From a virus: a stretch of 31,163 nucleotides of DNA. Location of the stretch: IMG/VR virus record IMGVR_UViG_3300010392_000660, positions 1 to 31,163 of that record, one strand, 5' to 3'. Below are positions 1-26,331 of the stretch, one piece after another (within the stretch, counting starts at the first letter, position 1; each line of letters opens with the position of its first letter). The translations under genes were made by a program, and so were the position numbers. Under the pieces are notes generated by a model that saw only the letters and a program-made list of their open reading frames with translations, searched no databases and was not told the origin of the DNA.

Positions 1-1872
1 GAGAATTGGGACGCCTTCCGAGAGGGCCGGGAGCTAGGCTGCCCGGTGGCTGAGACCCCCACGGGCGGACGACACCTAGTCCTCCGCTGGCGTGGCAATT
101 TGACCTCTTCCTCTGGGAAGCTGGCTCGCGGCGTGGACACTCGTGGGGGTGACGGTAGCCCCCGATCGCACGTCGTGGCATGGCCCTCACGCACAGAAGA
201 TGGTACCTACAGTTGGATTGAAGGCGGAGAAATACCGGAAACACCACAGTGGGTCAGCGATGCACTTGGGGTCCCGTGGTCGTCTAAACCCGGGCGCGGC
301 AATGAAGAGGTCGGAGAACAGGATGAAGAGTGGAAATATGAGCTGCATCAAATTGCAGCCATGCTGGACCATGTTAACCCCGATATTTTATCGTACGAAG
401 AATGGCTATTTGTGGGACAAGCGATCAACAGTCAACACCCTGACCCAGATGGACTCCAACTTTGGGACACGTGGTCTGCTAATGGTGAGCGTTATGTACA
501 GGGCGAATGCGAGAAACGCTGGACTGGGTTCAATCCCGGGGGAACCATTCGAATGGGGTCGCTCATCTATTTCGCAAAACAGGGCGGATACGACACAACT
601 GCTGATCCAGCTAGAACGGGTGACTTCGAAGAATTAGTAGACAGGATGAATGAAGATAATGCCATCCTGCTGACCGGGGGTAAAGTACGAATCGTACACC
701 GGGATAAGCGGGGCGGCATCCATATAATGGGGACCAATGACTTTAACACCCTGATGTATAACCGAACAATTACGATACCTAATGCCAAGAAACGAACCAC
801 TGAGGCCGATATTTGGATGGGCCACGAGCTTCGCAGAGAGTGCATTATGGGCATGGGCTTCTTCCCAAGTGAGGAGTTTTGGCACGATGGTTACGTCAAC
901 ATGTGGCAAGGCTGGGGGGCAGACCCCAAAGAAGGCGATTGGACCATGTTCGATAATCACGTGAGAGATGTCTTATGCGCTGGGGATAAGAAACTTTATA
1001 CTTTCGTCCTCGATTGGGTGGCCGACATACTACAAGACCCAATGAACCCCAAAGGGACCGCAATCGTAATGCATGGCAAGGAAGGCACCGGTAAAGGCAC
1101 CTTCTGCGAGATTGTGGGCAAGATCATGGGTAAGCAGCACTATAAACACGTAACCAATGACCGTCATTTGACTGGTAATTTTAACTATCACCTAATGGAT
1201 GGGCTGTTAGTATTTGCAGACGAGGTAGTTTATGGCGGGTCGCGCAGCACAGCAGGTATACTTAAGTCTATGGTCACAGAGAAAATGCTTGTATGTGAGC
1301 GAAAAGGCGTGGACTCTTTCATGTACGAAAATAGAGCAAGGCTTGTTGTGGCCTCGAACGAGGATTGGTTCATCCCGGCTGGACCTGAATCCCGGCGATG
1401 GCTTGTACTGGAGGTAAGCGATAAGTACGCAAATAAACGATCCTACTTCGATGCCCTTTACGCCCAAATGGAGGACGGGGGATATGAAGCAATGATGCAT
1501 GACCTATTGGCCCGGAAGATCACGAGCAATCTAAATAAGGCACTTGAGACGAAGGCGTTAGAGCAGCAACGTGCAATATACCGATCCACTGGCGATGCGG
1601 TTGATCAATGGATGGACCGGTGTATCGCCAAAGAGGACTTGGGAGTCCCCGACGAAGGTGAAGGGGGTTGGCCAAGTGATGTAGATAGAATGGACTTATA
1701 CGAAGCCTTTGACAGTTGGGCGGACAATAAGAAGATAAGAACCAAGGGCGTAGCCCACTTTTATAAAAAGGTAGAGAGTTATGGTTTCATTAAACACCGC
1801 CCTCGAACAGAGGGTGTCAGAAAATGGCGTTACAAGGTCCCACCGCATGACAAGTTTGATACCGAAAGTTGA
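1..1872 (+). CDS. Primase-helicase (prim-pol C-terminal part, PriCT-2, DUF5906/SF3 helicase), 5' partial
   Basis: Replication protein that primes and unwinds phage DNA. The frame is open to base 1, so the gene starts outside the window; a GTG at 46 is probably internal. Up to about base 260 the product matches the end of an archaeo-eukaryotic prim-pol domain (ETPTGGRHL, then GVDTRG and a VVAWPS block). Bases ~330-600 fit a PriCT-2 domain (LQLWDTWS, ECEKRW). Bases ~1040-1420 fit the DUF5906/SF3-type helicase: Walker A GKEGTGKGT at 1075-1101, LLVFADEV as Walker B near 1204, and ASNEDWFIPAGPESRRW as the sensor and arginine-finger region. G+C falls sharply near base 300, in the linker between prim-pol and PriCT-2. 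The 3' end overlaps purZ by 26 nt. Family assignment is firm; the missing N-terminus cannot be judged. Confidence 0.9.
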   Translation, partial: ENWDAFREGRELGCPVAETPTGGRHLVLRWRGNLTSSSGKLARGVDTRGGDGSPRSHVVAWPSRTEDGTYSWIEGGEIPETPQWVSDALGVPWSSKPGRGNEEVGEQDEEWKYELHQIAAMLDHVNPDILSYEEWLFVGQAINSQHPDPDGLQLWDTWSANGERYVQGECEKRWTGFNPGGTIRMGSLIYFAKQGGYDTTADPARTGDFEELVDRMNEDNAILLTGGKVRIVHRDKRGGIHIMGTNDFNTLMYNRTITIPNAKKRTTEADIWMGHELRRECIMGMGFFPSEEFWHDGYVNMWQGWGADPKEGDWTMFDNHVRDVLCAGDKKLYTFVLDWVADILQDPMNPKGTAIVMHGKEGTGKGTFCEIVGKIMGKQHYKHVTNDRHLTGNFNYHLMDGLLVFADEVVYGGSRSTAGILKSMVTEKMLVCERKGVDSFMYENRARLVVASNEDWFIPAGPESRRWLVLEVSDKYANKRSYFDALYAQMEDGGYEAMMHDLLARKITSNLNKALETKALEQQRAIYRSTGDAVDQWMDRCIAKEDLGVPDEGEGGWPSDVDRMDLYEAFDSWADNKKIRTKGVAHFYKKVESYGFIKHRPRTEGVRKWRYKVPPHDKFDTES

Positions 1873-2830
1873 TCTAGTAGTGGACCTGCAATTCGGATCA
1901 ACTGGGAAGGGTCTAATTTGCGGCTATCTGTCTGAGACAGGGGATTACGATACCGCAATATCGGCTAATATGCCGAATGCAGGGCACACTTATATAGACA
2001 AGTATGGGTCTAAATACATGACCAAGGTGCTGCCAGCTAGCTTCATCGGTAAGAATATTAAGCAAATTCTGATCGGTCCCGGGGCCGTGTTCAGTGTCGC
2101 AAGGCTCATGGAGGAAATGGCGTGGCTTCGAACAGATCAGGTATTGCGCATTCATCCGAACGCCACAGTGCTTGCCGATCATCACAAGGTTGCCGAGTCC
2201 CACCTGATGGAAAAAATCGGAAGTACGGCACAAGGATCGGCGGCAGCAGTAATCGACAAGATGCTGCGGATAGAGCACATAACAGCTAAGCAGGTGTTTA
2301 AAGGTACCAAGTGGGAGTACCTTGTCGCCAGCCACGACGAATGGATAATTCGCCTTGAATCTAGTCAGGGCATACTTGCAGAAGGGTCGCAGGGCTATAG
2401 TCTTGGGATTAACACCCAGTTCTATCCCTACACCACCAGCCGCGATTGTGGACCTGCGGCCTTTCTCTCTAATTTAGGCATACCTTTGGGGATGCTTGAT
2501 ATGGTAATTGGCACTTGTCGTACCCTACCAATTCGGGTTGGGGGAGCAAGTGGTAATTGTTACGCGGATCAGGAGGAGTTATCTTGGGAGGAGTTGGGCC
2601 TAGAACCCGAGCGAACTACCGTCACCAACCGCATACGCCGCATCTTTACTTATAGTAGGATGCAAATCGAGGAGGCTTGTTGGTGGTGCCAACCTGATCT
2701 AGTTTTCCTCAACTTCGCCAATTATGTCGATAAGCAGCAGGTCACAGAAATTGTGGCCCACATCGACGATTTTAGTAACGTGCGGTGGGTCGGATTTGGA
2801 CCCGCGTACCAAGATGTGGGATTAGTATGA
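1847..2830 (+). CDS. purZ: PurZ, phage adenylosuccinate-synthetase-like N6-succino-2-amino-dAMP synthase
   Basis: 327 aa. Known PurZ enzymes join aspartate to dGMP using ATP or dATP, giving the precursor that host PurB converts to dZMP. Start ATG 1847 has AAGG 9 nt upstream. PurA-family landmarks are in order: QFGSTGKG at residues 15-22 (P-loop), PNAGHT with His47, IGPGAVFS, IGSTAQGS, LAEGSQG, YPYTTSRDCG and the arginine-rich NRIRR. Two departures mark it as PurZ and not PurA. Ser18 sits where E. coli PurA has catalytic Asp13 (GDEGKGK), and the guanine-binding KxD near the C-terminus is replaced by NFANY. It is also about 100 residues shorter than bacterial PurA (~430). It shares an ATGA overlap with mazZ. 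Archaeal-type short PurA is the main alternative, but the neighbours settle it. Confidence 0.93.
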   Translation: MTSLIPKVDLVVDLQFGSTGKGLICGYLSETGDYDTAISANMPNAGHTYIDKYGSKYMTKVLPASFIGKNIKQILIGPGAVFSVARLMEEMAWLRTDQVLRIHPNATVLADHHKVAESHLMEKIGSTAQGSAAAVIDKMLRIEHITAKQVFKGTKWEYLVASHDEWIIRLESSQGILAEGSQGYSLGINTQFYPYTTSRDCGPAAFLSNLGIPLGMLDMVIGTCRTLPIRVGGASGNCYADQEELSWEELGLEPERTTVTNRIRRIFTYSRMQIEEACWWCQPDLVFLNFANYVDKQQVTEIVAHIDDFSNVRWVGFGPAYQDVGLV

Positions 2831-3141
2831 CAGACTTTAACGTAAATGAACTACGGGTAGTGACCCGGGCCATTTGGAAATGGGCCAATACAATTATGCC
2901 GGATCGAACACCAGCGGACGCTATCAAGAAGCTTTCGATGGAAGAGGTACCGGAATTATGGAGGTCGTTGAAGGAGAATGGTGAAGTGGACGAGGGCGAA
3001 ATTGCCGATGTCCTGATCCTTGCCTTGGACATCTGCGAAATGTCAGGAATCGATCCCCTAACCGCAATCCACCAGAAAATGGCTACGAACATAGGCCGTA
3101 AGTGGAAATTTGAGTACGGAGTACTACAACATGAAGATTAA
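2827..3141 (+). CDS. mazZ: MazZ, MazG-like (d)GTP pyrophosphohydrolase
   Basis: 104 aa, all-alpha MazG-like NTP pyrophosphohydrolase. In Z-genome phages MazZ cleaves dGTP/GTP to the monophosphate, feeding dGMP to PurZ. The metal-binding signature is visible as E40-V-P-E43 and E58-I-A-D61 (ExxE...ExxD), and the C-terminal KMATNIGRKW matches the usual family ending. The start ATG at 2827 lies inside the purZ stop (ATGA), so the two are translationally coupled. The longer frame opening at 2785 is rejected because it would run into purZ without a ribosome site. On its own the domain could be any phage MazG house-cleaning enzyme; the dGTP role rests on its position between purZ and datZ. Confidence 0.9.
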   Translation: MTDFNVNELRVVTRAIWKWANTIMPDRTPADAIKKLSMEEVPELWRSLKENGEVDEGEIADVLILALDICEMSGIDPLTAIHQKMATNIGRKWKFEYGVLQHED

Positions 3142-3631
3142 TGACATTCTCCGGGCATCCGGCGTCACCCGGTGGCATATAGTCCGGACCGTACGCCCCC
3201 AGAGTCTAGCGGAGCATACGTTCGATGTAGTGATGATTGCCCGGGCTGTGGCTAAGATTGCAGGAGTCGACGATTATGAAATCATCAAAGCTGCTCTCCT
3301 TCATGACTTGGATGAAATTGTTACCGGGGACATTCCTACGCCGACTAAACAGAAGGCAAGGGATAATGGGTGGGAGCTTAATGACCTATACAAGACTGTC
3401 ACGGGACGTGAACTTAGTCCAGACGAGTCGCTCATCATCCAATTATCGGACAGGATGGCCGATCTTTACTGGTTGTGGTTGCATGCGCTTGGACCCCATA
3501 GTAACAGAGTATATGAGGTTATGGCCGAGCAGTTCAATGAATTTGTGCGGTCCGACGCGGTACCGGACAACATCAAGGAGGCAACGCTCGATGTTCAAGT
3601 GCAAATGCTTTCTGAGGAGTTTGTAATATGA
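3131..3631 (+). CDS. datZ: DatZ, HD-domain dATP triphosphohydrolase
   Basis: 166 aa HD-domain phosphohydrolase of the YfbR/DatZ type. Known DatZ removes dATP as deoxyadenosine plus triphosphate, clearing adenine from the pool so that Z is incorporated. The family core is visible: RWHIVRTVRPQSLAEH with His29, LLHDLDE with His58-Asp59, TGDIPTP immediately after, and QLSD with Asp107 as the fourth metal ligand. ATG 3131 is chosen because GGAG lies 9 nt upstream (3118-3121); an in-frame TTG at 3110 would add seven residues. It overlaps mazZ by 11 nt and shares ATGA with the next gene. Substrate preference (dATP versus general dNMP) is inferred from the operon, not from the motifs alone. Confidence 0.9.
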   Translation: MKINDILRASGVTRWHIVRTVRPQSLAEHTFDVVMIARAVAKIAGVDDYEIIKAALLHDLDEIVTGDIPTPTKQKARDNGWELNDLYKTVTGRELSPDESLIIQLSDRMADLYWLWLHALGPHSNRVYEVMAEQFNEFVRSDAVPDNIKEATLDVQVQMLSEEFVI

Positions 3632-4125
3632 GTAATCGTGGTGAGGCGAAGATGTGGAAATATCTCGCCCCTAAACTTAAGGTATATGGCCATTTTGAGA
3701 GGATAGAAGCCCATGAAACAGCTAACGGAACTCCTGATGTCGAGTATTGTATTGAGGGATATACGAACCGTATTGAACTCAAATTTACAGATAGTTTCAA
3801 GAAAGGATTTCGTCTCAGACCTTCACAATGCGGATGGTTCAGAAAAAGAGTTAAAGCTGGAGGACAGCCGTGGTTGCTGGCACAAAGTCTCATTCGCGAC
3901 AAGCGGGGCTACGTATTGGTTGCGGGTGATAACGTACCGGACCTTGTCCACACAACTAAAATTACCACTTGGTACGAGGCCGGGGTAAGGGTATGGGAAG
4001 ACAAGATCGACATAGAGGAGCTTGTACTATACCTCAGCACCTACTTGATTGTGGACTCACCAGAGCCAGTTTCGACGGAAGAGTCCTCGAAATTGATATT
4101 ACCTTCACATCTGTCGAAGACCTAA
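3628..4125 (+). CDS. PD-(D/E)XK nuclease, VRR-NUC/resolvase-like
   Basis: 165 aa. A restriction-nuclease-fold active site is visible: Glu6 in the first helix, Pro36-Asp37 (GTPDVEY), then E50-L-K52 (IELKF), followed by RPSQCGWFRKR and a GYVLVAG strand. This order is typical of VRR-NUC and phage Holliday-resolvase-like nucleases that process branched or damaged DNA during recombination and packaging. The start ATG overlaps the datZ stop (ATGA), so it belongs to the same operon and is presumably made with the Z enzymes. It would have to act on Z-containing phage DNA. The exact substrate cannot be told; an endonuclease against host DNA is an alternative. Confidence 0.75.
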   Translation: MSNRGEAKMWKYLAPKLKVYGHFERIEAHETANGTPDVEYCIEGYTNRIELKFTDSFKKGFRLRPSQCGWFRKRVKAGGQPWLLAQSLIRDKRGYVLVAGDNVPDLVHTTKITTWYEAGVRVWEDKIDIEELVLYLSTYLIVDSPEPVSTEESSKLILPSHLSKT

Positions 4126-4364
4126 GTGACATCATATACGGGGATTGGATTAAGCAGTTCGATCCCTGTATTGTCCTAGAGGTAATGGACATGGGTAAGT
4201 TTAAGACCCACTTCGCCGGGGCACTTGTTGACGGAGTATATTGTACTAGTGGAATCAGTCAGTTTGTATATGACCTTATGACTTCTTCACATCAGTCCGT
4301 GAAACACCAAGTCTCTTCTCGTAGGTCCGAAGGCCACCAAGACCTAACATCCCCATTAGAATAG
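3993..4364 (+). CDS. Possible small protein at the end of the Z operon
   Basis: The stretch between the nuclease stop (4125) and the end of the convergent lysis genes (4276) is covered only by this frame. Its middle part looks protein-like: VLEIDITFTSVEDLSD, GDWIKQFDPCIVLEVMDMG and FAGALVDGVYCTSG. The only in-frame starts are TTG 3969 and ATG 3993, both deep inside the nuclease gene, so the first ~25 residues look like shadow sequence. The last ~30 residues overlap the holin gene tail to tail. Possibilities are a genuine long overlap, a frameshifted extension of the nuclease, or an unusual start near 4075. No family was recognised. Confidence 0.35.
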   Translation: MGRQDRHRGACTIPQHLLDCGLTRASFDGRVLEIDITFTSVEDLSDIIYGDWIKQFDPCIVLEVMDMGKFKTHFAGALVDGVYCTSGISQFVYDLMTSSHQSVKHQVSSRRSEGHQDLTSPLE

Positions 4365-4707
4365 TCATTAGCTCTCCGATTTCGAGGGCGGGGGCACCTG
4401 AAAGATCGGGTCCCCCGGGCCAGATGAATGCGCCCCAAGCGATCAATGGCTGAATCACAAAATTCCAGGCCAATCCAGCGCCGCAAATCCAACCAATTGC
4501 CGGTCGCCACCCGGCTACAAATATGCTGGCATGTTCTGCTTCTTTGGCATTTACTGCCAATTGGCCCTGTACTAGCGTAGTCAGGGCAACCAACATTTGG
4601 CCCTCGAATTGCTCCTGCGCTTCGGCCCGTTTATTTTTGTCAGGGATGAAGCGTAATACCCCCTCCAGAATGGGTCCCAGTGCCTTATTCAGTAGATCAC
4701 CTAACAT
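4276..4707 (-). CDS. Holin, three-helix (GTA holin/3TM type)
   Basis: 143 aa. Members of the 3TM holin family form holes in the inner membrane and time lysis. The N-terminus is amphipathic and charged (LNKALGPILEGVLRFIPDKNKRAEA). A hydrophobic hairpin follows (IFVAGWRPAIGWICGAGLAW with FVIQPLIAWGAFIW), then a third segment (IGELMTILMGMLGLGGL) and a basic tail. The GWRPAIGW motif is characteristic of the family. The start overlaps the endolysin stop (TAATG), with a GAGGGTGG ribosome site. It is the last gene of the late block; no clear U-tract terminator follows it, and the plus-strand operon ends against it. Confidence 0.8.
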   Translation of the reverse strand: MLGDLLNKALGPILEGVLRFIPDKNKRAEAQEQFEGQMLVALTTLVQGQLAVNAKEAEHASIFVAGWRPAIGWICGAGLAWNFVIQPLIAWGAFIWPGGPDLSGAPALEIGELMTILMGMLGLGGLRTYEKRLGVSRTDVKKS

Positions 4708-6021: not shown

Positions 6022-7014
6022 TTAGGTGGTGGTATCGAATTTAGCCATTTGAATTTGTTGTGATCCGGTATCACCCATTACCCAAACGTATCTCGTATTA
6101 TTAGGGTCGATCCAAACGGAGTCGATATCCCATTGACCGGCTGCCGAGTTGAATTGGGACCCTATATCCCGGTCAGGCCCATAGCTCACGGTAGAAACAT
6201 CGGTAGCTGTAGTCAAGGTAACAAGCCTAATCCCGTTTGTTCCCTTGCACAGGTAAAACGACAATTCATCTTTACTAAGGTCCGACAGGTGTCCGCCGAT
6301 GGCAGGCTCTTGAGCCTCAATATCCTCTGATGCCTGCAAAGTAAAGGCGCTAAGATCACCCCCCGGCGTGGTGATGTAATGTAAAAAATTGTGAAATGGC
6401 GAGCTACCGTCAGGGGCATGCCAAAGAATATAGCTCAAATTTGGTGGAGCAGTCCAAAACCCATCAGACGACCCGGTGTAGCCAATATCCGCTTTAGAAA
6501 TGGTGCTATGCCGACCACCAATGGGCTGCCCTTTCACAGCATAGGCCGAGCTAGATGGGTAACGGTCGATATTGTCACCAGCCCGAAGGAACGCATACGC
6601 AAGACCACTAAGATAGAATTTGGCATTACCGGGATTGACGTCACCATCAGCAGTTAGAGCCGTTGCTGTCTCAGGATCGAATGGCGTCGAGCAGGTAAAG
6701 GTCGTGAGTTGATCATCGGACGCGTTGCATATCGTCAACAGCGTACCAGCAGAATTCCAATATATCCCATGGCCTCGAGGGAATGTGTAATATGCATCGA
6801 TGCTGGACAAATCGCCATCAATACCAGTACCATCTCGAGTGTCCCATTCACCAACTAGGGTCCAGCCCGAAGGATCAGTGAATGTAGTTGGGGGGGCATT
6901 TTCGAAAGTAGGCGCATAGGCGGTTAAAGCAATATTAGCACTCGGCAGTTGAGATACCTGCAAATCAGAACGCAATAACAACGCTGGCGCTATTTTTCCT
7001 CCGGGAAATGGCAT
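6022..7014 (-). CDS. Receptor-binding cluster protein: one fibre repeat plus propeller-like domain
   Basis: 330 aa. ATG 7014 is chosen because it lies 2 nt after the stop of the upstream gene; the longer frame from 7050 overlaps that gene. After a short MPFPGGKIAPALLL leader it carries one copy of the repeat found 22 times in the 934-aa fibre (VSQLPSANIALTAYAP). About 280 residues of beta-rich sequence follow, with recurring short strands (GIYWNSAGTLLTI, IRLVTLTTATDVSTVSYG, TRYVWVMGDTGSQQIQMAKF) that look like propeller blades. It is probably a tail spike or fibre tip contacting the host surface. No enzyme motif was seen. It is the last virion gene before the lysis cassette. Confidence 0.7.
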   Translation of the reverse strand: MPFPGGKIAPALLLRSDLQVSQLPSANIALTAYAPTFENAPPTTFTDPSGWTLVGEWDTRDGTGIDGDLSSIDAYYTFPRGHGIYWNSAGTLLTICNASDDQLTTFTCSTPFDPETATALTADGDVNPGNAKFYLSGLAYAFLRAGDNIDRYPSSSAYAVKGQPIGGRHSTISKADIGYTGSSDGFWTAPPNLSYILWHAPDGSSPFHNFLHYITTPGGDLSAFTLQASEDIEAQEPAIGGHLSDLSKDELSFYLCKGTNGIRLVTLTTATDVSTVSYGPDRDIGSQFNSAAGQWDIDSVWIDPNNTRYVWVMGDTGSQQIQMAKFDTTT

Positions 7015-7016
7015 TG

Positions 7017-7715
7017 TTATAGCTCGGTTATTTCGCCAACCACCATCCATTCATTAGGGTCTTGCTTAATGAATGTGACAGTGCCATAGCGACGTGAAAT
7101 TGAAGACCCAGCTGGACTTTCGATAACGACACCACCTTCTGCTACCCAATCAACCGCCGCTGTGCCTTTACGAAACACCGATATTTGGGTACCTCTTTCA
7201 TGGTCAATGGTGGTATCATTTGGTACTGTAATAGTTTGCAGGGCGGGGGTTGGGGCCATACCCGTAGCTCTCAACATTCTAGACTTATCGGAAAATTGCA
7301 AAGTACGGTCTGCACCGAAGTCGGCAAAATTCCACAACTGATCGGCTGCTGTGGCGATTGAATCAACTACCCCCGTGAGTCTGTTATTCACATCTTGGAT
7401 TATTGAGGTAAGTTTATCCAAATTGTCCTCGTTAGTCAAAGAATCAAATGGGTCATGCCTTTCGTAGTCCGTTTCTTGTGTGATTGGAGTCACACGCTCA
7501 ATATGAATGTCCTGTAGGTTGGGGGGAGCTACCAAATATTCAACCGTTCCGCCGGGGTTAAGGTCCTGATCAACATTCAAGACTACTCCGCTAATGTCGT
7601 CAGTGAAATCGATAATGACCCACGTCACATCGGCTACCCTAAAATTAAAGGCAAATGAAGTTTGCGCCCCATTACCGATGTAATCGATAAAGTTTGTTAC
7701 GTCTAGTATGGTCAT
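7017..7715 (-). CDS. Tail fibre adaptor protein with T7-fibre-like N-terminal domain
   Basis: 232 aa. The first ~110 residues (TSFAFNFRV, then LNPGGTVEYLVAPP, TQETDYERHDPFD and LDKLTSIIQD) match the N-terminal adaptor of podoviral tail fibres and spikes that plugs into the tail. The same order occurs in the 229-aa protein at 11923-12612. The C-terminal half (DADRTLQFSDKSRML-like, then VVIESPAGSSISRRYGTVTF) resembles the small beta domain that ends many phage fibre adaptors. Its position between the repeat fibre and the 330-aa spike suggests it anchors one of them. RBS AGGA lies ~7 nt before ATG. Confidence 0.75.
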   Translation of the reverse strand: MTILDVTNFIDYIGNGAQTSFAFNFRVADVTWVIIDFTDDISGVVLNVDQDLNPGGTVEYLVAPPNLQDIHIERVTPITQETDYERHDPFDSLTNEDNLDKLTSIIQDVNNRLTGVVDSIATAADQLWNFADFGADRTLQFSDKSRMLRATGMAPTPALQTITVPNDTTIDHERGTQISVFRKGTAAVDWVAEGGVVIESPAGSSISRRYGTVTFIKQDPNEWMVVGEITEL

Positions 7716-7723
7716 AACTTATC

Positions 7724-10528
7724 CTATGTTATTATGATCACTCGGTTTTTCAATTCCGGTATCACTGTTAGTGGTGCATATGCAGTTAAAGTTAACCCTG
7801 CACTTGGTAGTTCAATTATGTGCTTTTCAGTGACTACCGCTTGTGGAGCGAACGCTGTTAAAGTAATAGCAGCATTTGCCAGTTGACTGAAGTTATTGTC
7901 GGTTGATACAGCCTGCGGAGCAAATGCCGTTACTGTTAATGATGCACTTGGCAGTTGACTCGTATTAGGGTCAAATGTCTCAACGGTCGGAGTAAACGCA
8001 GTAAGGGTCAGCGCTTGACTGGGCAACTGGCTAATGTTATGCTCAGTTGTGACGGCCTGTGGAACAAATGCCGTTAGGGTTAATGCCTGAGTGGCCAACT
8101 CACTTATATCACCAGCCCCACCTTCGGTTGTAACAGCTTGCGGAACAAATGCCGTTAGGGTCAATGCCTGAGTGGCCAGTTGACTGATGTTCGGGTCAAA
8201 AGTTTCTGCCGATGGAGCAAATGCTGTTAGAGTCAGCACCACTGATGGCAATTGGCTAATGTTCGGGTCAAATGTTTCAACGGTCGGGTCAAATGCTGTT
8301 ACTGTCAATGTTGCACTTGGCAATTGACTCGTATTAGGGTCAAATGTCTCAACAGTCGGAGCAAATGCCGTTAGAGTAAGCGCTACTGATGGCAACTGAC
8401 TCGTATTGGGATCAAATGTTTCAACGGTCGGGGCAAATGCCGTTAGGGTCAATGCCTGAGTGGCCATATCAACAAATTGATTATCGCCCTCAGTTGTAAC
8501 GGCCTGTGGAACAAATGCCGTTAGGGTCAATGCTTGAGTGGCCAACTCACTTATATGTTTCTCAGTTGTAACTGCCTGTGGAGCGAACGCTGTTAGGGTC
8601 AATGCCTGAGTGGCCAATTGGCTAATATTCGGGTCAAATGTCTCAACAGTCGGGGCAAATGCCGTTAGGGTCAATGCCTGAGTGGCCAATTGGCTGGTAT
8701 TATCTTCCCCCTCAGTTGTAACGGCCTGTGGGACAAATGTCGTTAGGGTCAATGCCTGAGTGGCTAACTCACTTATATGTTTCTCAGTCGTAATGGCCTG
8801 TGGGACAAATGTCGTTAAAGTTAGTGCCTGAGTGGCTAACTCACTTATATGTTTCTCAGTCGTAATGGCCTGTGGAACAAATGTCGTTAAAGTTAGTGCC
8901 TGAGTGGCCAACTCACTGAAATTATTGGCCGCAACCACCGCATCCGGGGCAAATGCCGTTAGGGTCAATGCCTGAGTGGCCAACTCACTGAAATTATGCT
9001 CAGTAGTAACGGCTTGCGGGGCAGACCCACTGAACGTGAGGGTAGCGCTGGGCAACTCACTTATGTGTTTTTCGGTCGTGACTGTTTGTGGGTCATAGGA
9101 CGTTACAGTAAGCGTAGCACCCGGTAGTTGACTAAAGTTGTTATCGGTTGATACGGCCTGTGGCGCATTGGCCGTTACGGTCAGTGTAGCACTTGGTAAT
9201 TCACTGACATTTGGATCAAATGTTTCTGCTGATGGGGCAAATGCCGTTAGCGCAATAGCCGCAGACGCTAATAGGGAAATATTCTTTTCAGTGGTTACTG
9301 CCGATGGCACATACGCAGTAACAGTTAAATTTTGTTTGGGTAACTCACTTATCTCACCGCCACCAGCGATAATGACTTTTTCGTTATATTTTTGGTCGGT
9401 GGCATCGTCATAAAAATAAGCAAGAACAGTGTCGCCATCACGTACATAAATATTGGATGAAAGATGGTTACAAGTAATACCATCAATTTCTTCATTTAGC
9501 CCCGACCATGTATCTCCATCATCGGTACTGGTTTTATAATAAATATCCTGATCATCGCCATTTGTCCCGCCACCTGAATATAAAATATGAAGATCGCCAT
9601 CAAGTTCAGCAATGCTGGTAATTGCATCCTCGCCATTTACATATGGATCTGTAATCGATTCAACCGTAGAAAATGTGGGGGTAGAAATATCATCTGAACC
9701 ATCTTCGGTTGATTGGTATACCCGTAAATGGTAATTAGAAGCACTTGATGATGCTCGGACGAAAGCACCAATTATGCGTTGAGTGCCGGCATCGTCGTAC
9801 GACACCATATTTGCATGGCCTCGCAGGGCAAAACCCGGAGCAGAACTAGAAAGATTTACGACCGTTGATAAACTGTCTGAGGGATCAACAGTTCTACCTT
9901 GTGTGTGTGCAGCAGTAATGGGCGGATCGTCGGCTACCGACGTTTGCTCCCACCACAGAATGTGCATATCGTCAGTAAGTGGCCCCTTGACAACATTTGG
10001 GTTGGCGTAATGGATATCACCAGCAGCGTCAAGCGCAACGGCCCCACCCCACGTTCCAGCAGGCGATGTACCAATTGTTCTTATATTTACATCGACGCGC
10101 TCTTTGGCGTCGCCCATAACCCGGTCAGTATCGCCAGCATATACAGCAACAACATCGCCATCAGAGCGAACATCAATAGAAATCCACCACTGATCGGGAT
10201 CATCGGCAACACTATCAATCTGTTCATCAGTAATGACCCAAGTTTTACTGCTTGTGTCAAAACATGAATAAGAATAAATAGCGCCATTACAATGAGCGAC
10301 ATGGATTAAGTCTCCACCATCATTTGCTGTCGCAAGGACTATTGATACATTAGAGGGCGAACCTGCAACATCACGCTGCGTCCATGAATCAGTGGGATCA
10401 GTTGCTTCCCATGCTTGTGGACCACCGGTAAAGTTGCGGGAGATAACCCAAACAGAACTACCAATCAAATAAGGCGGATGGTGGCCCGGCCCTCCTGTCT
10501 CAGTGCTAACTGTAGTTGGCAGCGCCAT
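7724..10528 (-). CDS. Giant repeat-containing tail fibre with N-terminal sialidase-like propeller
   Basis: 934 aa. Residues ~1-390 look like a sialidase-type beta-propeller, with an Asp-box STDDGDTWSG near residue 335 and other blade-like strands. Residues ~393-928 are 22 tandem repeats of 24-27 residues (core ISELATQALTLTAF, then a P-rich joint and a TTEKH or ETFDPN end), followed by a six-residue tail. The repeats are probably a stacked beta stalk. The order head-then-stalk, without an N-terminal adaptor, implies attachment through another protein. TAATG couples it to the methyltransferase-like gene. It is likely part of host recognition; catalytic sialidase residues could not be confirmed. 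Confidence 0.8.
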   Translation of the reverse strand: MALPTTVSTETGGPGHHPPYLIGSSVWVISRNFTGGPQAWEATDPTDSWTQRDVAGSPSNVSIVLATANDGGDLIHVAHCNGAIYSYSCFDTSSKTWVITDEQIDSVADDPDQWWISIDVRSDGDVVAVYAGDTDRVMGDAKERVDVNIRTIGTSPAGTWGGAVALDAAGDIHYANPNVVKGPLTDDMHILWWEQTSVADDPPITAAHTQGRTVDPSDSLSTVVNLSSSAPGFALRGHANMVSYDDAGTQRIIGAFVRASSSASNYHLRVYQSTEDGSDDISTPTFSTVESITDPYVNGEDAITSIAELDGDLHILYSGGGTNGDDQDIYYKTSTDDGDTWSGLNEEIDGITCNHLSSNIYVRDGDTVLAYFYDDATDQKYNEKVIIAGGGEISELPKQNLTVTAYVPSAVTTEKNISLLASAAIALTAFAPSAETFDPNVSELPSATLTVTANAPQAVSTDNNFSQLPGATLTVTSYDPQTVTTEKHISELPSATLTFSGSAPQAVTTEHNFSELATQALTLTAFAPDAVVAANNFSELATQALTLTTFVPQAITTEKHISELATQALTLTTFVPQAITTEKHISELATQALTLTTFVPQAVTTEGEDNTSQLATQALTLTAFAPTVETFDPNISQLATQALTLTAFAPQAVTTEKHISELATQALTLTAFVPQAVTTEGDNQFVDMATQALTLTAFAPTVETFDPNTSQLPSVALTLTAFAPTVETFDPNTSQLPSATLTVTAFDPTVETFDPNISQLPSVVLTLTAFAPSAETFDPNISQLATQALTLTAFVPQAVTTEGGAGDISELATQALTLTAFVPQAVTTEHNISQLPSQALTLTAFTPTVETFDPNTSQLPSASLTVTAFAPQAVSTDNNFSQLANAAITLTAFAPQAVVTEKHIIELPSAGLTLTAYAPLTVIPELKNRVIIIT
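7745..9352 (-). repeat. 22 tandem ~72-bp coding repeats in the tail fibre gene
   Basis: Twenty-two in-frame units of 72-81 bp encode the stalk of the 934-aa fibre. Each unit combines one of two first halves (ATQALTL or PSATLTV type) with one of two second halves (APQAVTTE or APTVETFDPN type). Three units carry a 2-3 residue insertion after TTEG. Units near the middle are almost identical at DNA level, while units at both edges are diverged, as expected from repeated unequal recombination. Confidence 0.95.
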
Positions 10529-11214
10529 TACGGTAGGTATTCCTCGCCATCAGGACTGATAACTTCAGCGCCGAGGGTAATGGTTTGAATATCCGCCAAC
10601 GAACGTGCCAGTGTTGGCCGAGCAATAAAAATTAAACGCTGAGAACCACCAAACCCATTGCCAGCATTTCTGGCATTAAGTATGTCCTGATCTGTCCACG
10701 TATCATCAATGATGTCTTCGAACACAACAATAGATGGCCAATTACCACCAAGCGCTGTGCGAATTTCTTGACGTTGTGGACCACTAGAAGCATCGTTCTC
10801 AAGAATAGTTACATTTGAACGGGGTTGCCCGTCATAAATACCGGCAAGTACAATTGCGCCGTGACCCGAATCGGGGTCATGACCTGCCGCCGTTACCGCA
10901 GCACGTAATTCAATTTCCTCGGTATTGGTTTGTTCGGCAGCAATATACTCAGAAATGTCAATGCCAACCACAGTAGCACCTGTCTCAACAACTACTGCAT
11001 CGACTCCCCAACCAAATCCTGCACCGACAACACAGACATACTCCGTAGAGGTAATGCCTAAAATGGGTACAAGCCTACCCCACATCTTCTGTAGGATAGG
11101 CTGCATAGCCCATTTATGATAGTTACACCGAATTTGATTCGGGTCTCCACCAAAATGACGACTAACCCTGATTGAGTATGACGCATCATAGTCGGCTTTT
11201 GTCCAGCCAGCCAT
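10528..11214 (-). CDS. Class I SAM-dependent methyltransferase-like protein in the fibre cluster
   Basis: 228 aa. A Rossmann-type SAM site is visible: VCVVGAGFGWG (motif I, residues 60-70), then VVGIDIS with Asp86 as the ribose-binding acid, and a later IVVFEDIIDD acidic strand. The first ~50 residues (NYHKWAMQPILQKMWGRL) resemble the N-terminal cap seen in small phage and bacterial methyltransferases. No DNA-methylase motif (DPPY/NPPY) was seen, so protein, sugar or small-molecule methylation is more likely. It sits among receptor-binding genes with a 5-nt gap upstream and a TAATG overlap downstream, so it is expressed late. Target unknown. Confidence 0.65.
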   Translation of the reverse strand: MAGWTKADYDASYSIRVSRHFGGDPNQIRCNYHKWAMQPILQKMWGRLVPILGITSTEYVCVVGAGFGWGVDAVVVETGATVVGIDISEYIAAEQTNTEEIELRAAVTAAGHDPDSGHGAIVLAGIYDGQPRSNVTILENDASSGPQRQEIRTALGGNWPSIVVFEDIIDDTWTDQDILNARNAGNGFGGSQRLIFIARPTLARSLADIQTITLGAEVISPDGEEYLP

Positions 11215-11219
11215 GAGTA

Positions 11220-11678
11220 CTAAACTCCAGGCATTGCTGCTTCGGTGTAACCGCTAGCATTAACCTGTAGTGTCAAAGTGTTGGTGTCGGTCGTTGTGAC
11301 ATCTGCTGGGGCGTTGTCCAACAGGCCGTAGAAACACAGCATGTCAAGCGGTGACGTCGCAGAGTCATTGTACAGGAACCAGAACCTCGCAACAATCGAC
11401 CCACCAGATGCAGTAAATACTGCGTCCTCAGAATCAAAGCGCCATGTACCGGCAACCGGCTCCGTCAGTGTGGCAGAGACAAGCGTATCACGGGCATAGC
11501 CGTTACCTGTAACTTCGTTAGTGATGTCAGCCAAGGCTTCGTGGGTCGCCTTATTTGGCACGTATGAGCTAGTAGTAAGACCAACGATAAACACATCGCT
11601 GTCGACATCGACGTTTTTGTTGTGCAATTCCCTGCCGTAGGAATCATAAACGTTTAATGTTCCAGTAGTTGTAGCCAT
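11220..11678 (-). CDS. Phage structural protein, fibre-cluster type
   Basis: 152 aa. The order (KATHEALADITNEVTGNGYARDTL, SEDAVFTASGGSIVARFWFLYND, LDMLCFYGLLD) matches a short beta-rich protein family common next to tail genes in podoviruses and siphoviruses, of unknown exact role. It has GAGG before ATG and TAATG overlap with the 81-aa gene. It is probably a virion component or fibre partner. No enzyme motif was seen. Confidence 0.65.
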   Translation of the reverse strand: MATTTGTLNVYDSYGRELHNKNVDVDSDVFIVGLTTSSYVPNKATHEALADITNEVTGNGYARDTLVSATLTEPVAGTWRFDSEDAVFTASGGSIVARFWFLYNDSATSPLDMLCFYGLLDNAPADVTTTDTNTLTLQVNASGYTEAAMPGV

Positions 11679-11923
11679 TAGAATTTCCTCAGTTCAGTTG
11701 CGTTAGTATCAATCATGGTGGCCCCGTCCCATTGGTACGCCCAAGCCCACGTATCTGCGGCCTTGTCCTTCATTACCGAAAAAGGGGCGGACAGGATTAG
11801 CTGTTCCTCTTTCGGCATTTTATCAATAGCTTCCCGATCTTTTGGCGAGAGGAGTATTGCTATGGCTTGCTTCGTTGAGTCGAACTCATACGTCTTATCG
11901 TTATGTTTAATTTTAACTAACAT
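11678..11923 (-). CDS. Small hypothetical protein
   Basis: 81 aa, unrecognised. ATG 11923 is chosen because it overlaps the stop of the upstream gene (TAATG) and has GAGG 11 nt upstream; the frame opening at 12001 would overlap that gene. The product is mixed charge: a short beta start (MLVKIKHNDKTYEFD) and a helical, lysine-rich centre (SPKDREAIDKMPKEEQ). Position suggests a fibre-associated or late accessory protein. Confidence 0.6.
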   Translation of the reverse strand: MLVKIKHNDKTYEFDSTKQAIAILLSPKDREAIDKMPKEEQLILSAPFSVMKDKAADTWAWAYQWDGATMIDTNATELRKF

Positions 11924-12612
11924 TATGGTAATACCTCTGTGTATCTTATTGTTATATGAATTGTATTGACGGTACCGCTCTGTGCGGTGGTTTCCAGCCA
12001 AATAAACGAATCAGCTGGGACGGAAGGATTGTCCATTACGGTTATGTCGTCTCCCGTGGTTATATTGGTAGTAACAGTACCACTAGTTATGATTTCTGTG
12101 CCTGCGGCATCCCTATCAGGACCATAACGAAGAGTCCATGTAACCGAAGGCAACGATGCTCCTCTTAATACAGCCCGGATTTCCGATACTTCCAATGCTA
12201 CCGGGGTAAAAAATAGGGTAACATCCTCCACACTGTCTGGGTTTTCAAGAGTAACTGACTTAGACTTCTGGGCTGTGTTCTTGTCCCGGTCTTGAATGGC
12301 CATGGTCAGTTTATCAAGTGCACCCTCATGGGATTCTGAATCGAATGGTCCATGCCTTGTATAATCCTGCAGTTGAGTTAGGGGCACATTCCTTGTCAGT
12401 ATGATCTGTTGGTCTAATGGCGGAGCAACGGTATAATCCACAGACCCACCGGGGTTCAACTCTTGATCACCGTTCAGAGTGATCTGGTCGAAACTAACCA
12501 AGTAGGATAGTGACAACCATGCCACATCATCGCACCTAAATACAAACGGGAAACTGACAGTCACCGCATTGCCTTGGAATGATATTTCCGATGTTACGTC
12601 TTGTACTGTCAT
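11923..12612 (-). CDS. Tail fibre adaptor with C-terminal beta-sandwich
   Basis: 229 aa. Residues ~1-115 share the T7-fibre-like adaptor (SFPFVFRCDDVAW, LNPGGSVDYTVAPP, TQLQDYTRHGPFD, LDKLTMAIQDRD) with the protein at 7017-7715. Residues ~120-229 form a compact beta domain (VEDVTLFFTPVALEVSEI, TWTLRYGPDRDAAGTEI, SFIWLETTAQSG) of a kind often found at phage fibre ends. It couples to the 1529-aa internal virion protein by ATGA and opens the receptor-binding cluster. Likely role: the structural connector between tail and side fibres. Confidence 0.8.
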   Translation of the reverse strand: MTVQDVTSEISFQGNAVTVSFPFVFRCDDVAWLSLSYLVSFDQITLNGDQELNPGGSVDYTVAPPLDQQIILTRNVPLTQLQDYTRHGPFDSESHEGALDKLTMAIQDRDKNTAQKSKSVTLENPDSVEDVTLFFTPVALEVSEIRAVLRGASLPSVTWTLRYGPDRDAAGTEIITSGTVTTNITTGDDITVMDNPSVPADSFIWLETTAQSGTVNTIHITIRYTEVLP

Positions 12613-18951: not shown

Positions 18952-19352
18952 TAACTGCCCATCCCATAAACACTTGCACCAGTCGATATGCCAGATTTAA
19001 TTGCGGCCATTCTATTGGTCTTGTAATCAACACTAGCACTTTCAACGCCCAAGTTTCTGGCCTCCTTAGCGTATTTCTTCATCCAATCCAGCTCTCTCTT
19101 GAACTCAGTGGCCATGACGTCAAGGTAACCTTGTGCAGTAGACCCACCGTGGTGGGTAACGCCTGCATTTTGACTAAAAGCTTGAGCAATGCCCTGAGTT
19201 TGATCTTGCTCAAATTTACGGCGACGAATCTTCTCAAGATTATCCTGATAAGTCAATTCCACCATATCCAGATCGATGCCGTATTGTTCGCCAGCACCTT
19301 CATGTCCAGCGGCAGCGACTCCGAAACCGATTGCGGCTGCTACAAATCCCAT
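18951..19352 (-). CDS. Internal virion protein, T7 gp14-like
   Basis: 133 aa. It starts with a hydrophobic glycine/alanine segment (MGFVAAAIGFGVAAAG) that could insert into the outer membrane, followed by helical charged sequence (LTYQDNLEKIRRRKFEQDQ, TEFKRELDWMKKYAKEA). This is the layout of the small ejection protein gp14. It is coupled by TAATG to both neighbours. Assignment comes from layout and gene order. Confidence 0.68.
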   Translation of the reverse strand: MGFVAAAIGFGVAAAGHEGAGEQYGIDLDMVELTYQDNLEKIRRRKFEQDQTQGIAQAFSQNAGVTHHGGSTAQGYLDVMATEFKRELDWMKKYAKEARNLGVESASVDYKTNRMAAIKSGISTGASVYGMGS

Positions 19353-19942
19353 TATCTTGTCCTCGCGCCAGTAAGCCTGCTACTCTTAATGACCTCTGTT
19401 CTACCTTGACTGCCATCGGCATACATGGCCTCACTTAACTTGGCCTCGTATTTGGCCTCCATTTTCTCTTCCAATTTTATGTTCTCAGTGAAAACAATGG
19501 CTGTATCCGCCGCCATTCTAGCGGCTAATGCGTGTACGAAGGAAGGAGGGAATAATGCACTATCCGTAACCCGCATGATAAAATGCGCCCATAGTACATC
19601 CGCATTAGATATGATGTATTGCCCCTCACGAACCCACTTGGCTGACGTAAACAAATCCGCCTGTGCGGTATTACTGGCACGATAAACCCGGTATACCCGT
19701 AGCACATTGTTCGGGATCAAAAACTTGTTGCCTGCACCAAAAACTGGCGCATCGACAATTGGGGACAAAGTTTCCCTTTTCAAGGCAAAAGTCCATGCCG
19801 CATCGTTTAACACTTTATCCCGGGCTAAAGCATAATTAGCATTCATGATAATCGCTTCATTTTGATTATCAGTGAAAGAGTTAATTTGGTTCTGGCCCAT
19901 CCAAGACAGAGCTAGATTCGCAATTTGTACCGGATTAGACAC
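19352..19942 (-). CDS. Tail tubular protein A (gp11-like)
   Basis: 196 aa. The opening IANLALSWMGQNQINSFTD, then ARDKVLNDAAWTFALKRETL and a VLRVYRVYRAS strand match podoviral tail tubular A / head-completion proteins, which form the ring between portal and nozzle. The start is GTG 19942, overlapping the TAG of the nozzle gene, with GGAGAG 5-6 nt upstream. Transcription order is B before A, reversed relative to T7. Confidence 0.88.
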   Translation of the reverse strand: MSNPVQIANLALSWMGQNQINSFTDNQNEAIIMNANYALARDKVLNDAAWTFALKRETLSPIVDAPVFGAGNKFLIPNNVLRVYRVYRASNTAQADLFTSAKWVREGQYIISNADVLWAHFIMRVTDSALFPPSFVHALAARMAADTAIVFTENIKLEEKMEAKYEAKLSEAMYADGSQGRTEVIKSSRLTGARTR

Positions 19943-22440
19943 TATATCTCTCCACTAGTGATCTTACCAAAGATAGCCAAAATTTCTGTGCGTAGTGGCT
20001 TGTCTTGGGTTACTACAAGTTCGCCCTGATCCGTTCCGAGTTCCGAATACTCCCTATCAACCGATTCAATAGGTTCACCAGTTCCCATTGGGGTCGATGG
20101 TGACCTATCCTTTGGGTATTCGCCGTTGACAAACGGAACAGCTGATTCATTCAAACGAAGAACAACTTTGTTCCACCGTCGTTTAGTTATTTGTGAAGTT
20201 CCCCTGTTGGACACATTTTCAATGGGCAATAATTTTACCTCATTGTCATAAAATATTCCAACATGCGCAATATTGCCTTCAGCAATCGCCCAGTCCTCAA
20301 ATTCAGTGGACACGCCAGCAACAGCCGTGATATTGGGGTGAACTGTAAAACTTATAACCCCTGTAGTCGGGTCAGTACGTTCAATCACACAATTTATACT
20401 TTGATCCGTTAGATGGTCAATGTCACTGATCTTTTTGGTGACAGGATCAATAAGTCTAGTAGCAAATGAATCTAGCAATGGCACCCTAAGTGTGTCAAAT
20501 GCCACTACCTCATGCCCGGGCAATGTTGTACCTGAAAACCCGGTCCGATTAACAATCATCCACAACTTAGCTCCTTGTGACGTATTGATTTTGGTGATAT
20601 CCATAATCTGATTTGAAAGTTGTTGATTCAAATTAGGACCCTGACCCGGCTCCCCCGGCTTAGTTTCATCACCAGAATCACGATTTCCATTGTACGCAGT
20701 CACATACGTCCACCACCCAATAACATTTTCTGGGTAAAAGTACGTAGCCATGGCCAACGTACCATCTTCAAGGAGAAAACATGCTTGGTATGCTGGTTCA
20801 TCCAGATAAATCATCCTACGGACTTTTGACCTGAATAATTCCTGCGCCAATAATGACAATTCCTGGCCATCCCAACCACCGATAGAATCGCCACCATCTT
20901 GAAAAGTGCGCATCCTTTGGCGGCTATTGGATGTAAAGATCATATCGCGGCCAACCACCACAGGTTGTGTGCAAGTTGATCCCCAATCTGTTTGTTTTGG
21001 GAAAGAAAAGTCATCAAATGCTATTACACCGAGTTCAGATGTTCCAATTACCTCAGATATATCGGTGTTAATGACTAAAACTTTACGACTAGTGAGGGAT
21101 TGAATTTGACCCGTCGATGAAAGTGGGAATAGTAGAGGGTCTGCCTTATCAGCGGGGGTAACATTATCAAAATTTTGATAATCTCCCGATTCCGAAGCCC
21201 ACAGCGTGGATGGGTTAATAGGCGATCCTGCCAACCATAATCGACCTTCGTGAAAAGCACCGGCTGCTGGGTAATTATCCGTTGTCCAATTATTCGGCGT
21301 CGGAGCCTGAAAAGCCGATGGCACAGTAATAGACGATAAAGCTTCAAGGGTCCATTCCCCCGTTGCTAGCCTCAATCTCTGCGTTTCAACCTCCGGATGG
21401 AAAAAATACGCCACTTGTTCGCCGGGGTCCATATCGTACTGTAAACAGTCTAATTGTGCCCTGGTATAAGGTGAGGTAAATTTAACATCTGTCCCTGACC
21501 CACCAGCCAGCGGCGCTCGCCAATCCAAATTCTCTATGAATACAGTAACACCTTTACCACTATCCCCATAGCCACCCAATGATGGTACAACCCCTGTCGT
21601 CCACACAAACCCAACAGTAATATATAATTCGTTATTGCTGGCTCCCGGAGTAAAGCTTAAGGTCACAGGAGTTCTAACGTTAGCAGACCCTAATGATATA
21701 TCGGTTGTGTACACATCACTAGCGCCCTGAGTAGTGCCAATATCCACTCTAACTTTGGGGTTTGTTGGGTTGTCCCCCAAGAAAAATGAAGTAACATCAA
21801 GTGATATTTCATTCAATAAGAGTTCTGATCCTGCAGGCAGTATGATAGGAAATCCATCTTGTAACTCTCCGGCGGGACCGTGCCAACCATCAGTTGGGGC
21901 ATTATCAGTTTCGGCGTTGAGCATAAAACCAAATATATTAGCAATGCCAAACCAACCGGCAGCATACCCACCTTCAAGGCCATGAATAATAAATCGACCG
22001 GGATCGGTGTTGTGAATCTGATAATCTCTGTTTGGACCCCATTCCGCCGCTGGCGTACCAAAACCGAAGATATTGTATGCGTTCCATGCTGGGGGTATAA
22101 GATTATCAGTAACACCACCAACAACCACCGTACCCGTTTGATCTAAAGCAACAATGTTGGCATCACCTACTTCAATAATTACATCTTTATCAAGACCACG
22201 CTGAAAAGTGAATACGCGTACACCCTTATTACCAGCCTGTCCCGATGTCCAATTGGTCGTGTCTACCGGTTCAACGTACTCAGAACCTTCACGCATGCGT
22301 ACTGGACCTTGGACTAACGGGTACCAATTTTTACAAGTAGCTAAAGCTTTCCTGTACGTATCTGTGCTTACACGACCGCGTACCCGTCCTCCAACAACGC
22401 CAGCGTTAAAAGATTCTTGTATGGGGGATAAACGGGCCAT
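19942..22440 (-). CDS. Tail tubular protein B (gp12-like nozzle)
   Basis: 832 aa. The start (ARLSPIQESFNAGVVGGRVRGRVSTDTYRKAL, with NWYPLVQGPVRMREGSEYV) is the typical opening of podoviral nozzle / stabilisation proteins. The C-terminus (ITKRRWNKVVLRLNES, then STPMGTGEPI) also fits. It builds the distal tail tube. ATGA overlap couples it to the upstream 234-aa gene. Length is in the family's usual range. Confidence 0.9.
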   Translation of the reverse strand: MARLSPIQESFNAGVVGGRVRGRVSTDTYRKALATCKNWYPLVQGPVRMREGSEYVEPVDTTNWTSGQAGNKGVRVFTFQRGLDKDVIIEVGDANIVALDQTGTVVVGGVTDNLIPPAWNAYNIFGFGTPAAEWGPNRDYQIHNTDPGRFIIHGLEGGYAAGWFGIANIFGFMLNAETDNAPTDGWHGPAGELQDGFPIILPAGSELLLNEISLDVTSFFLGDNPTNPKVRVDIGTTQGASDVYTTDISLGSANVRTPVTLSFTPGASNNELYITVGFVWTTGVVPSLGGYGDSGKGVTVFIENLDWRAPLAGGSGTDVKFTSPYTRAQLDCLQYDMDPGEQVAYFFHPEVETQRLRLATGEWTLEALSSITVPSAFQAPTPNNWTTDNYPAAGAFHEGRLWLAGSPINPSTLWASESGDYQNFDNVTPADKADPLLFPLSSTGQIQSLTSRKVLVINTDISEVIGTSELGVIAFDDFSFPKQTDWGSTCTQPVVVGRDMIFTSNSRQRMRTFQDGGDSIGGWDGQELSLLAQELFRSKVRRMIYLDEPAYQACFLLEDGTLAMATYFYPENVIGWWTYVTAYNGNRDSGDETKPGEPGQGPNLNQQLSNQIMDITKINTSQGAKLWMIVNRTGFSGTTLPGHEVVAFDTLRVPLLDSFATRLIDPVTKKISDIDHLTDQSINCVIERTDPTTGVISFTVHPNITAVAGVSTEFEDWAIAEGNIAHVGIFYDNEVKLLPIENVSNRGTSQITKRRWNKVVLRLNESAVPFVNGEYPKDRSPSTPMGTGEPIESVDREYSELGTDQGELVVTQDKPLRTEILAIFGKITSGEI

Positions 22441-23970: not shown

Positions 23971-24855
23971 TTAAATCGTGTCAGCTAGCTGCAACCAAAC
24001 GAGATGCTCGTCCTCAACGCGAACTGCGCCGATTGTCATGTACGAGTAAATACGCCATGCGAAGCTAAATGACGGGTCCTCGGCAATCCGTGACGTTACA
24101 TCACGATCGATCATTAGGCCAATAGCCTTCTTCGTCATTGCGAAGCAATCGATATCAGTGCCGGGGGCGGTTGGGTGGTTCAATCGTGTGGAGACAATCC
24201 ACTGATATCCCATCCAATTGTCCACGTAGCCCATTTCACCGAGGGCCTTCGCGTAGACGTAATCACCACTGGTCGCTTCCGTTAGCTGCAAGAGCTTACG
24301 GGCCTGAACAGGACCAATTACAATACACTTGGGTTCATCGGGATCGATATCGTTGTCAAGGAACTTCTCGGTTACCTGGGTTACGAGATCGAAATTGAGG
24401 GCGGTGTCATAAACGTCAACCGTTGCGCCAAAGACTTTCTGGGCAGCGGGGACTGCATTAGTGGCACCCAACCCATCGAGGGCTGTACCTGTTGCGGCGG
24501 CGATGATTTCGTCGTCGTACGCCCGTTTCATTGCATAGCCTTGCGACTGTGCGAGATTCGAGTTCGGATCAACGATCATCTGTACGATGTCTTCTTGCTC
24601 GGTAGAATCACCGGTATCGTACGTTACTGGGACGCTTACACGTCTAGACCACGGCCAATCTTGAGCCGGAGTGATTTGTAAGCGAGTGGATTTCACCTGC
24701 GCTTCCGCTGTGCCTAACCGTTCCCAGTTATGCTCTTCGGAATTGACGCCACGTTCCGTAACTTTGCTACGAAGCCTGGATGGCGTCTGTTGCGCTAGGT
24801 GACGAAGGATGCTTTCGTAAGTGCTTACAAAAACATTGTCGACTGTATTAACCAT
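23971..24855 (-). CDS. Major capsid protein
   Basis: 294 aa, HK97-fold-type capsid protein of the podoviral 'phage capsid protein' family. Features include the N-terminal STYESILRHLAQQTPSRLRSK arm, QDWPWSRRVSVPV, a KRAYDDEIIAAATGTALDG spine region, PKCIVIGPVQARKLLQL and the late DCFAMTKKAIGLMIDRDV. The start has AGGAG ~6 nt upstream. It is a single-gene transcription unit between a consensus promoter (24997-25025) and a strong terminator, which fits its need for hundreds of copies. Assignment is supported by family resemblance, size and scaffold just upstream. Confidence 0.88.
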   Translation of the reverse strand: MVNTVDNVFVSTYESILRHLAQQTPSRLRSKVTERGVNSEEHNWERLGTAEAQVKSTRLQITPAQDWPWSRRVSVPVTYDTGDSTEQEDIVQMIVDPNSNLAQSQGYAMKRAYDDEIIAAATGTALDGLGATNAVPAAQKVFGATVDVYDTALNFDLVTQVTEKFLDNDIDPDEPKCIVIGPVQARKLLQLTEATSGDYVYAKALGEMGYVDNWMGYQWIVSTRLNHPTAPGTDIDCFAMTKKAIGLMIDRDVTSRIAEDPSFSFAWRIYSYMTIGAVRVEDEHLVWLQLADTI

Positions 24856-24996: not shown

Positions 24997-25025
24997 AGTA
25001 TACCACACCCGGGCGTCCGTGTCAA
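24997..25025 (-). promoter_or_regulatory. Consensus sigma-70 promoter for the capsid gene
   Basis: On the minus strand TTGACA (25025-25020), 17-nt spacer, TATACT (25002-24997), with an extended -10 (TGG before TATACT). A 17-nt block around the -10, CGGGTGTGGTATACTCG, is identical in the promoter at 30317-30345. The -35 includes the stop codon of the YkgJ-like gene. Confidence 0.93.
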
Positions 25026-25294
25026 CCCCTCGCAAGTCTGATGTCCCGTCTTATCTCTTGCTCTTGTACCTGCGTTTCCCAATTTTTTTCTTGGTGCCTG
25101 CAAAATTTTTCCTGTAATAGGGGCGGCACCTTGGGGTCAAGTCGACAGAAATCAGGTCTAAAAGCATAAATGGCACAGGACATATCCTCTTGCAAATGTA
25201 TACAGGCTCGATCCCCCCTATCCAAGGAGGGATCGACAAAACCCACAAACCGGCAGCATGCTCCGCATTGCCAGCATTTGAACTTAGCGGCCAC
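25022..25294 (-). CDS. YkgJ-like cysteine-cluster (zinc/iron-chelating) protein
   Basis: 90 aa. Cysteine pattern C7-C10-C13-C14 (CWQCGACC), then C31, C40 (SCAIY), C50 within FRPDFCR, and C65. This is the YkgJ/YcgN metal-cluster signature. The start is GTG 25294, overlapping the scaffold stop by 11 nt. The family occurs in many phages; its role is unknown, with metal binding expected. Placement between scaffold and capsid genes is unusual for a metabolic gene and suggests a late function. Its stop codon lies inside the -35 of the capsid promoter. Confidence 0.85.
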   Translation of the reverse strand: MAAKFKCWQCGACCRFVGFVDPSLDRGDRACIHLQEDMSCAIYAFRPDFCRLDPKVPPLLQEKFCRHQEKNWETQVQEQEIRRDIRLARG

Positions 25295-26099: not shown

Positions 26100-26331
26100 T
26101 TTCTTTATACCTTATCATCTGGCGAATGTATATCACAACGTCTCTACCGCCGACCTTGTAGTTTGTTTCCGCGTCCGTTTCCCCAATTAAAACATCAGGG
26201 TTGAATTCCTCTTCCAGAGCTTGGAGAACCTTCACGCCTACTGGCGAAGTGAAAAGTTTGTGAAAGTCTCCTGCCTTCTTTCCAAGGGCCTCTATTGCAG
26301 CTTCCTTAGGCTGCTTGTTGTCCTGCTCCAC
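26071..26331 (-). CDS. Bbp19-like small head-region protein
   Basis: 86 aa. FHKLFTSPVGVKVLQALEEEF, a variable middle and a VGGRDVVIYIRQMI end match the short Bbp19-type domain found right after portal genes in podoviruses. The start is GTG, overlapping the portal stop by 26 nt. Role unknown; probably an assembly accessory. The assignment is by pattern and position. Confidence 0.65.
   Translation of the reverse strand: MEQDNKQPKEAAIEALGKKAGDFHKLFTSPVGVKVLQALEEEFNPDVLIGETDAETNYKVGGRDVVIYIRQMIRYKENVRRTELEG

Follow-up and report, generated by a model that had tools for sequence, protein, structure and literature searches.

Do three adjoining genes at one end of a phage contig, purZ, mazZ and datZ, belong to a pathway that replaces adenine by 2-aminoadenine (Z) in the phage genome, or do they serve other ends? 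The window, i.e., the whole stretch of DNA that was analyzed, comprises IMG/VR virus record IMGVR_UViG_3300010392_000660 from end to end (31,163 bp, classed as linear), and its left edge falls within a primase gene. With a probability of about 0.9, the window carries the purZ-mazZ-datZ part of the standard Z genome system of a phage with a short tail whose relatives include Alteromonas phage ZP6 and Vibrio phage phiVC8. Gene identities and order, catalytic residues, phylogeny and the DpoZ features of relatives were computed here.

The biochemistry of the Z pathway is established (PMC8342488, PMC8065100, PMC8599892). By analogy with the characterized families, MazZ would convert (d)GTP into (d)GMP, PurZ would join dGMP and aspartate into dSMP, and host PurB and kinases would turn dSMP into dZTP. 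DatZ would destroy dATP, DpoZ would copy the genome with Z replacing A, and the resulting Z-DNA would resist many host nucleases. The same analogy predicts these enzyme activities for the window proteins, a DpoZ in this phage and Z in its virion.

The left end of the window reads as follows:

1-1872, plus strand: primase/helicase with its 5' end cut (PriCT_2 and DUF5906, Pfam 1.4e-24 and 2.7e-17; PHROG 1156, DNA primase, 1e-71)
1847-2830, plus strand: purZ, predicted N6-succino-2-amino-2'-deoxyadenylate (dSMP) synthase (327 aa, ATG start)
2827-3141, plus strand: mazZ of MazZ-1 type, predicted (d)GTP pyrophosphohydrolase giving dGMP (104 aa)
3131-3631, plus strand: datZ, predicted HD-family dATP triphosphohydrolase (166 aa)
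3628-4125, plus strand: PD-(D/E)XK-like nuclease gene (PHROG 2165, 4.9e-21; 37% identical to phiVC8 p23, 33% to ZP6 gp20)

The three central open reading frames are intact, and their database matches lie far beyond chance. Neighboring genes overlap throughout: the purZ start (1847) lies within the 3' end of the primase gene (1872), which is 45% identical to the ZP6 and phiVC8 primases, and the next three junctions overlap by 4 nt (purZ/mazZ), 11 nt (mazZ/datZ) and 4 nt (datZ/nuclease gene). Three consecutive, overlapping genes with Z-pathway identities had been called in the initial annotation, and coordinates, family models, structure matches, residues and phylogeny agree with that call. The PHROG label for the family of the last gene is "DNA helicase"; its reading as a putative PD-(D/E)XK-like nuclease follows the HHpred annotation of the ZP6 gene and the position of such a gene after datZ in Z-podoviruses.

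A family A polymerase was looked for within the window and none was found; the contig breaks off within the primase gene that precedes purZ. Relatives with contigs that extend beyond the primase all have a PolA gene immediately upstream of it, and in nine of nine PolA proteins checked, the three insertions and the L455/F459/G548 residues characteristic of phiVC8-like DpoZ (PMC8599892) are present. For the nearest relative, the best polymerase matches are those of Z-phages (39-50% identity), with the next group at 27%. The window is collinear with a 37-kb relative that includes PolA (G001; primase 93%, portal 88%, capsid 91%), and the missing polymerase is thus most simply a matter of the contig edge; the phage probably encodes a DpoZ-type family A polymerase just upstream. 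Replication by PrimPol only, as in cyanophage S-2L, is an unlikely mode given the DpoZ directly upstream in the relatives. Phage phiJL001 is a case of a DpoZ-like polymerase in a phage that lacks Z genes.

MazZ has a weak Pfam match, and its best PDB match is S-2L MazZ (7ody, 1.4e-11). All of the S-2L residues E34, E35, E38, E50, D53, I56, D60, K76, N80, R83 and W85 are kept, among them every residue that binds the three metals, as well as I56 and D60, which contact guanine, as defined for S-2L (PMC8342488); N20, unique to S-2L MazZ according to the same study, is Met in the window. The MazZ proteins of phiVC8 and ZP6 are of the MazZ-2 type and lack equivalents of I56, K76, N80 and W85, whereas the window protein has all four, which rules out the phiVC8-like type and identifies it, by its residues, as MazZ-1.

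DatZ matches PHROG 7076 (dATP triphosphohydrolase, 1.8e-31) and, in the PDB, S-2L DatZ best (6zpa, 1.5e-13). It keeps S-2L R19, W20, I22, Q29, A32, H34, H66, D67, E70, G74, P79, K81 and D119, which include the HD metal ligands, phosphate contacts and adenine-pocket residues such as the adenine-selecting Ile22 (roles from PMC8065100). The initial annotation had all visible catalytic residues intact; this holds for the residues checked in PurZ and MazZ and fails for DatZ, in which the equivalent of the phosphate-contacting S-2L Lys116 is Gln, as it is in four relatives, while another relative with 86% identity (L009) has Lys. Close DatZ homologues are reported to keep Lys116 without exception (PMC8065100), so full dATPase activity is less certain, with family placement unaffected.

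The datZ gene itself varies. L005, L008 and L042, relatives of 29-41 kb from the same clade as the window, carry purZ, mazZ and polA, and a search for an HD-family gene across their whole records found none. The slot in which datZ would stand (11250-11500, 6350-6850 and 4283-4534, respectively) holds a small membrane protein of Pfam family DUF7220 in L042 and similar open reading frames in the other two. These phages have likely lost datZ, with the proviso that the records may be incomplete; the cassette is therefore not always complete in this group.

What, then, is the 327-aa protein? All three proteins share Pfam families with cellular enzymes, so that it could be taken for a cellular-type PurA making dAMP/AMP, beside unrelated MazG and YfbR neighbors. 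Against this, the protein scores 309.5 bits with the curated NCBI PurZ model NF038379 (cut-off 300 bits), while the PurA equivalog models score far under their cut-offs. It has Ser (GSTGKG) at the position of PurA Asp13 and keeps His41. Compared with phiVC8 and S-2L homologues, as the initial annotation had proposed, the three proteins find Z-pathway enzymes as their best structural matches: S-2L MazZ and DatZ for the two neighbors, and for the 327-aa protein the phiVC8 PurZ (6fm1/6fko, 8e-103) followed by S-2L PurZ (7odx, 7e-53). A maximum-likelihood tree of 60 rows sets the PurA rows, 14 of 14, apart from the rest with support of 100/100; since a scan of genome contigs returned only four PurZ-like matches, all in MAG contigs and with no informative cellular relatives, the PurA sampling is bacterial throughout (E. 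coli, Acinetobacter, and sequences related to one gammaproteobacterial MAG), with no archaeal row. Four PurZ0 rows form a group of their own (94/94), and the window sits among uncultured viral contigs on the phiVC8/ZP6 side (100/99), its nearest row being L002 at 84% identity. A grouping with cellular PurA had been named at the outset as the result that would count against a Z cassette; the tree was run and places the protein inside phage PurZ instead. Tree and residue test together refute the PurA identity, to which we give almost no credence, and support a phage PurZ, with dSMP synthase activity predicted from characterized families.

An authentic triad might still serve auxiliary metabolism, with the three enzymes tuning nucleotide pools in a phage whose genome contains little or no Z, e.g., owing to an unselective polymerase or a weak DatZ. 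The Gln at the Lys116 position, the three relatives that lack datZ and the location of this phage's polymerase off the contig all fit such a role, and Z substitution could be partial if dATP were removed poorly or the polymerase chose less strictly. However, the DpoZ-specific insertions and substitutions are found in the PolA of all nine relatives checked, and dozens of contigs share a replication operon in which purZ is flanked by the primase gene and mazZ. Moreover, phiVC8, which has the same layout, has Z-DNA (PMC8599892), and E. coli given no more than the S-2L triad incorporated Z into its DNA (PMC8342488). We consider pool tuning improbable and favor the standard Z genome system.

The structural genes lie on the strand opposite to purZ-mazZ-datZ:

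26306-27973, minus strand: portal, podovirus head-tail connector (PF12236, 1.6e-107; 50% identical to ZP6 portal, 88% to G001)
23971-24855, minus strand: major capsid protein (PF19821, 3.5e-49; PHROG 3437; 50% identical to ZP6 capsid protein)
19352-22440, minus strand: two tail proteins of tail tubular A/B type, short-tail module (PHROG 394, 4e-42; PHROG 376, 1e-77)

The first of the two tail proteins has a further match, to PHROG 9239 ("tail tubular protein"), and the PHROG search returned an internal virion protein match. The PF12236 portal, the short-tail genes and synteny with ZP6 thus make this a podovirus, as judged from genes alone. The podovirus layout noted initially is borne out by these genes; as a distinction it falls away, with the Z-podoviruses phiVC8 and ZP6 already published (PMC8342488, PMC8515928).

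Several other features of the window were recorded. A 934-aa protein (7724-10528, minus strand) with a long imperfect 72-bp repeat array (TRF 8141-9023) and weak BNR-like similarity is probably tail fibre or adhesin-like. Next to it in the tail region, a 228-aa protein (10528-11214, minus strand) shows by eye a methyltransferase-like GAGFGWG motif and has no match in Pfam or PHROG. Two tail proteins (7017-7715 and 11923-12612, minus strand) align to shared regions in both the 37-kb relative and ZP6, a sign that a tail-attachment domain may have been duplicated. A small Cys-rich protein whose CxxCxxCC domain (PF03692) is putatively metal-chelating is encoded at 25022-25294 (minus strand), flanked by the capsid gene and gene 25284-26099. 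Palindromes of 6 nt occur at 0.81 of expectation and those of 4 nt at about 1; palindrome avoidance, which might indirectly reflect restriction pressure, says nothing about Z content and was set aside.

Among named phages, ZP6 (Mareflavirus, a podovirus; PMC8515928) resembles the window in the order polA-primase-purZ-mazG-datZ-nuclease, after which come structural genes transcribed in the opposite direction, with identities of 50% (portal), 50% (major capsid protein), 45% (primase) and 47% (PurZ); it differs in its phiVC8-type MazZ-2, where the window has MazZ-1 with S-2L-type residues, and in its tail-end genes. The Enhodamviruses phiVC8, VP2 and VP5 have nearly the same order, interrupted only by a small additional gene that separates datZ from the nuclease gene. 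The phiVC8 PurZ, whose structure is the best PDB match, is 52% identical to that of the window; by contrast, its MazZ is a MazZ-2, its DatZ is only 34% identical, and the window shows no counterpart of its polymerase. S-2L shares the purZ-mazZ-datZ order and the MazZ and DatZ active-site residues (PMC8342488), but it is a siphovirus, its PurZ is only about 37% identical, and it replicates with PrimPol and lacks DpoZ (PMC8065100). Stenotrophomonas phage BUCT555 has the same layout (some of its genes identified by position) and likewise joins a phiVC8-like backbone to a MazZ-1-type (DUF550) gene, although its PurZ (47% identity) falls in another clade of the tree; the pairing of MazZ-1 with a phiVC8/ZP6-type podovirus backbone, found in BUCT555 and many contigs, is therefore not unique. 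The PurZ0 of Arthrobacter, Gordonia and Microbacterium phages belongs to the same superfamily and has Ser at the Asp13 position, yet it forms a separate clade, and these phages carry DutZ/DmtZ/DUF5664 in place of DatZ/MazZ (PMC12884076).

How common is the arrangement? Among 80 IMG/VR purZ loci, polA-primase-purZ-mazZ-datZ-nuclease is the commonest, with full MazZ-1 sets in this order at 19 of the 80 and further examples truncated or of MazZ-2 type; DatZ is present at 72. As the survey profiles were built from the same family set, these counts cover known-type genes only, and loci with no MazZ call may hold a divergent MazZ. One viral contig with a phiVC8-like purZ (L063, IMGVR_UViG_3300033696_000004, 119,931 bp) has no polA, primase, mazZ, datZ or nuclease gene within 3 kb of purZ, and its full length yields no HD-family gene. 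The remark in the initial annotation that Z-phages are rare finds no footing in the sequence data: IMG/VR holds at least 577 PurZ-encoding stretches, and 211 phage records have a PurZ match, with PurZ0 and some PurA-like sequences counted among them. Z-podoviruses have been in the literature since 2021 (PMC8342488, PMC8515928, PMC8599892), and a 2026 survey distinguishes at least seven Z-phage groups (PMC12884076).

The finding of a Z cassette is correct and well supported, and the window is a good but ordinary further example of a known system. Its wider meaning is that uncultured podoviruses commonly carry the Z-genome operon, which is not confined to a few isolates. A bolder and less probable reading is an uncultured Z-podovirus clade with swappable accessory enzymes, in which S-2L-type MazZ-1 takes the place of MazZ-2 and datZ is sometimes absent, with a small DUF7220 membrane protein in its slot; DpoZ might in that case do most of the selecting of Z over A, and the removal of dATP might be optional. 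The clade of the window offers natural comparisons, MazZ-1 against MazZ-2 and datZ present against absent, that bear on which enzymes are needed to exclude adenine.
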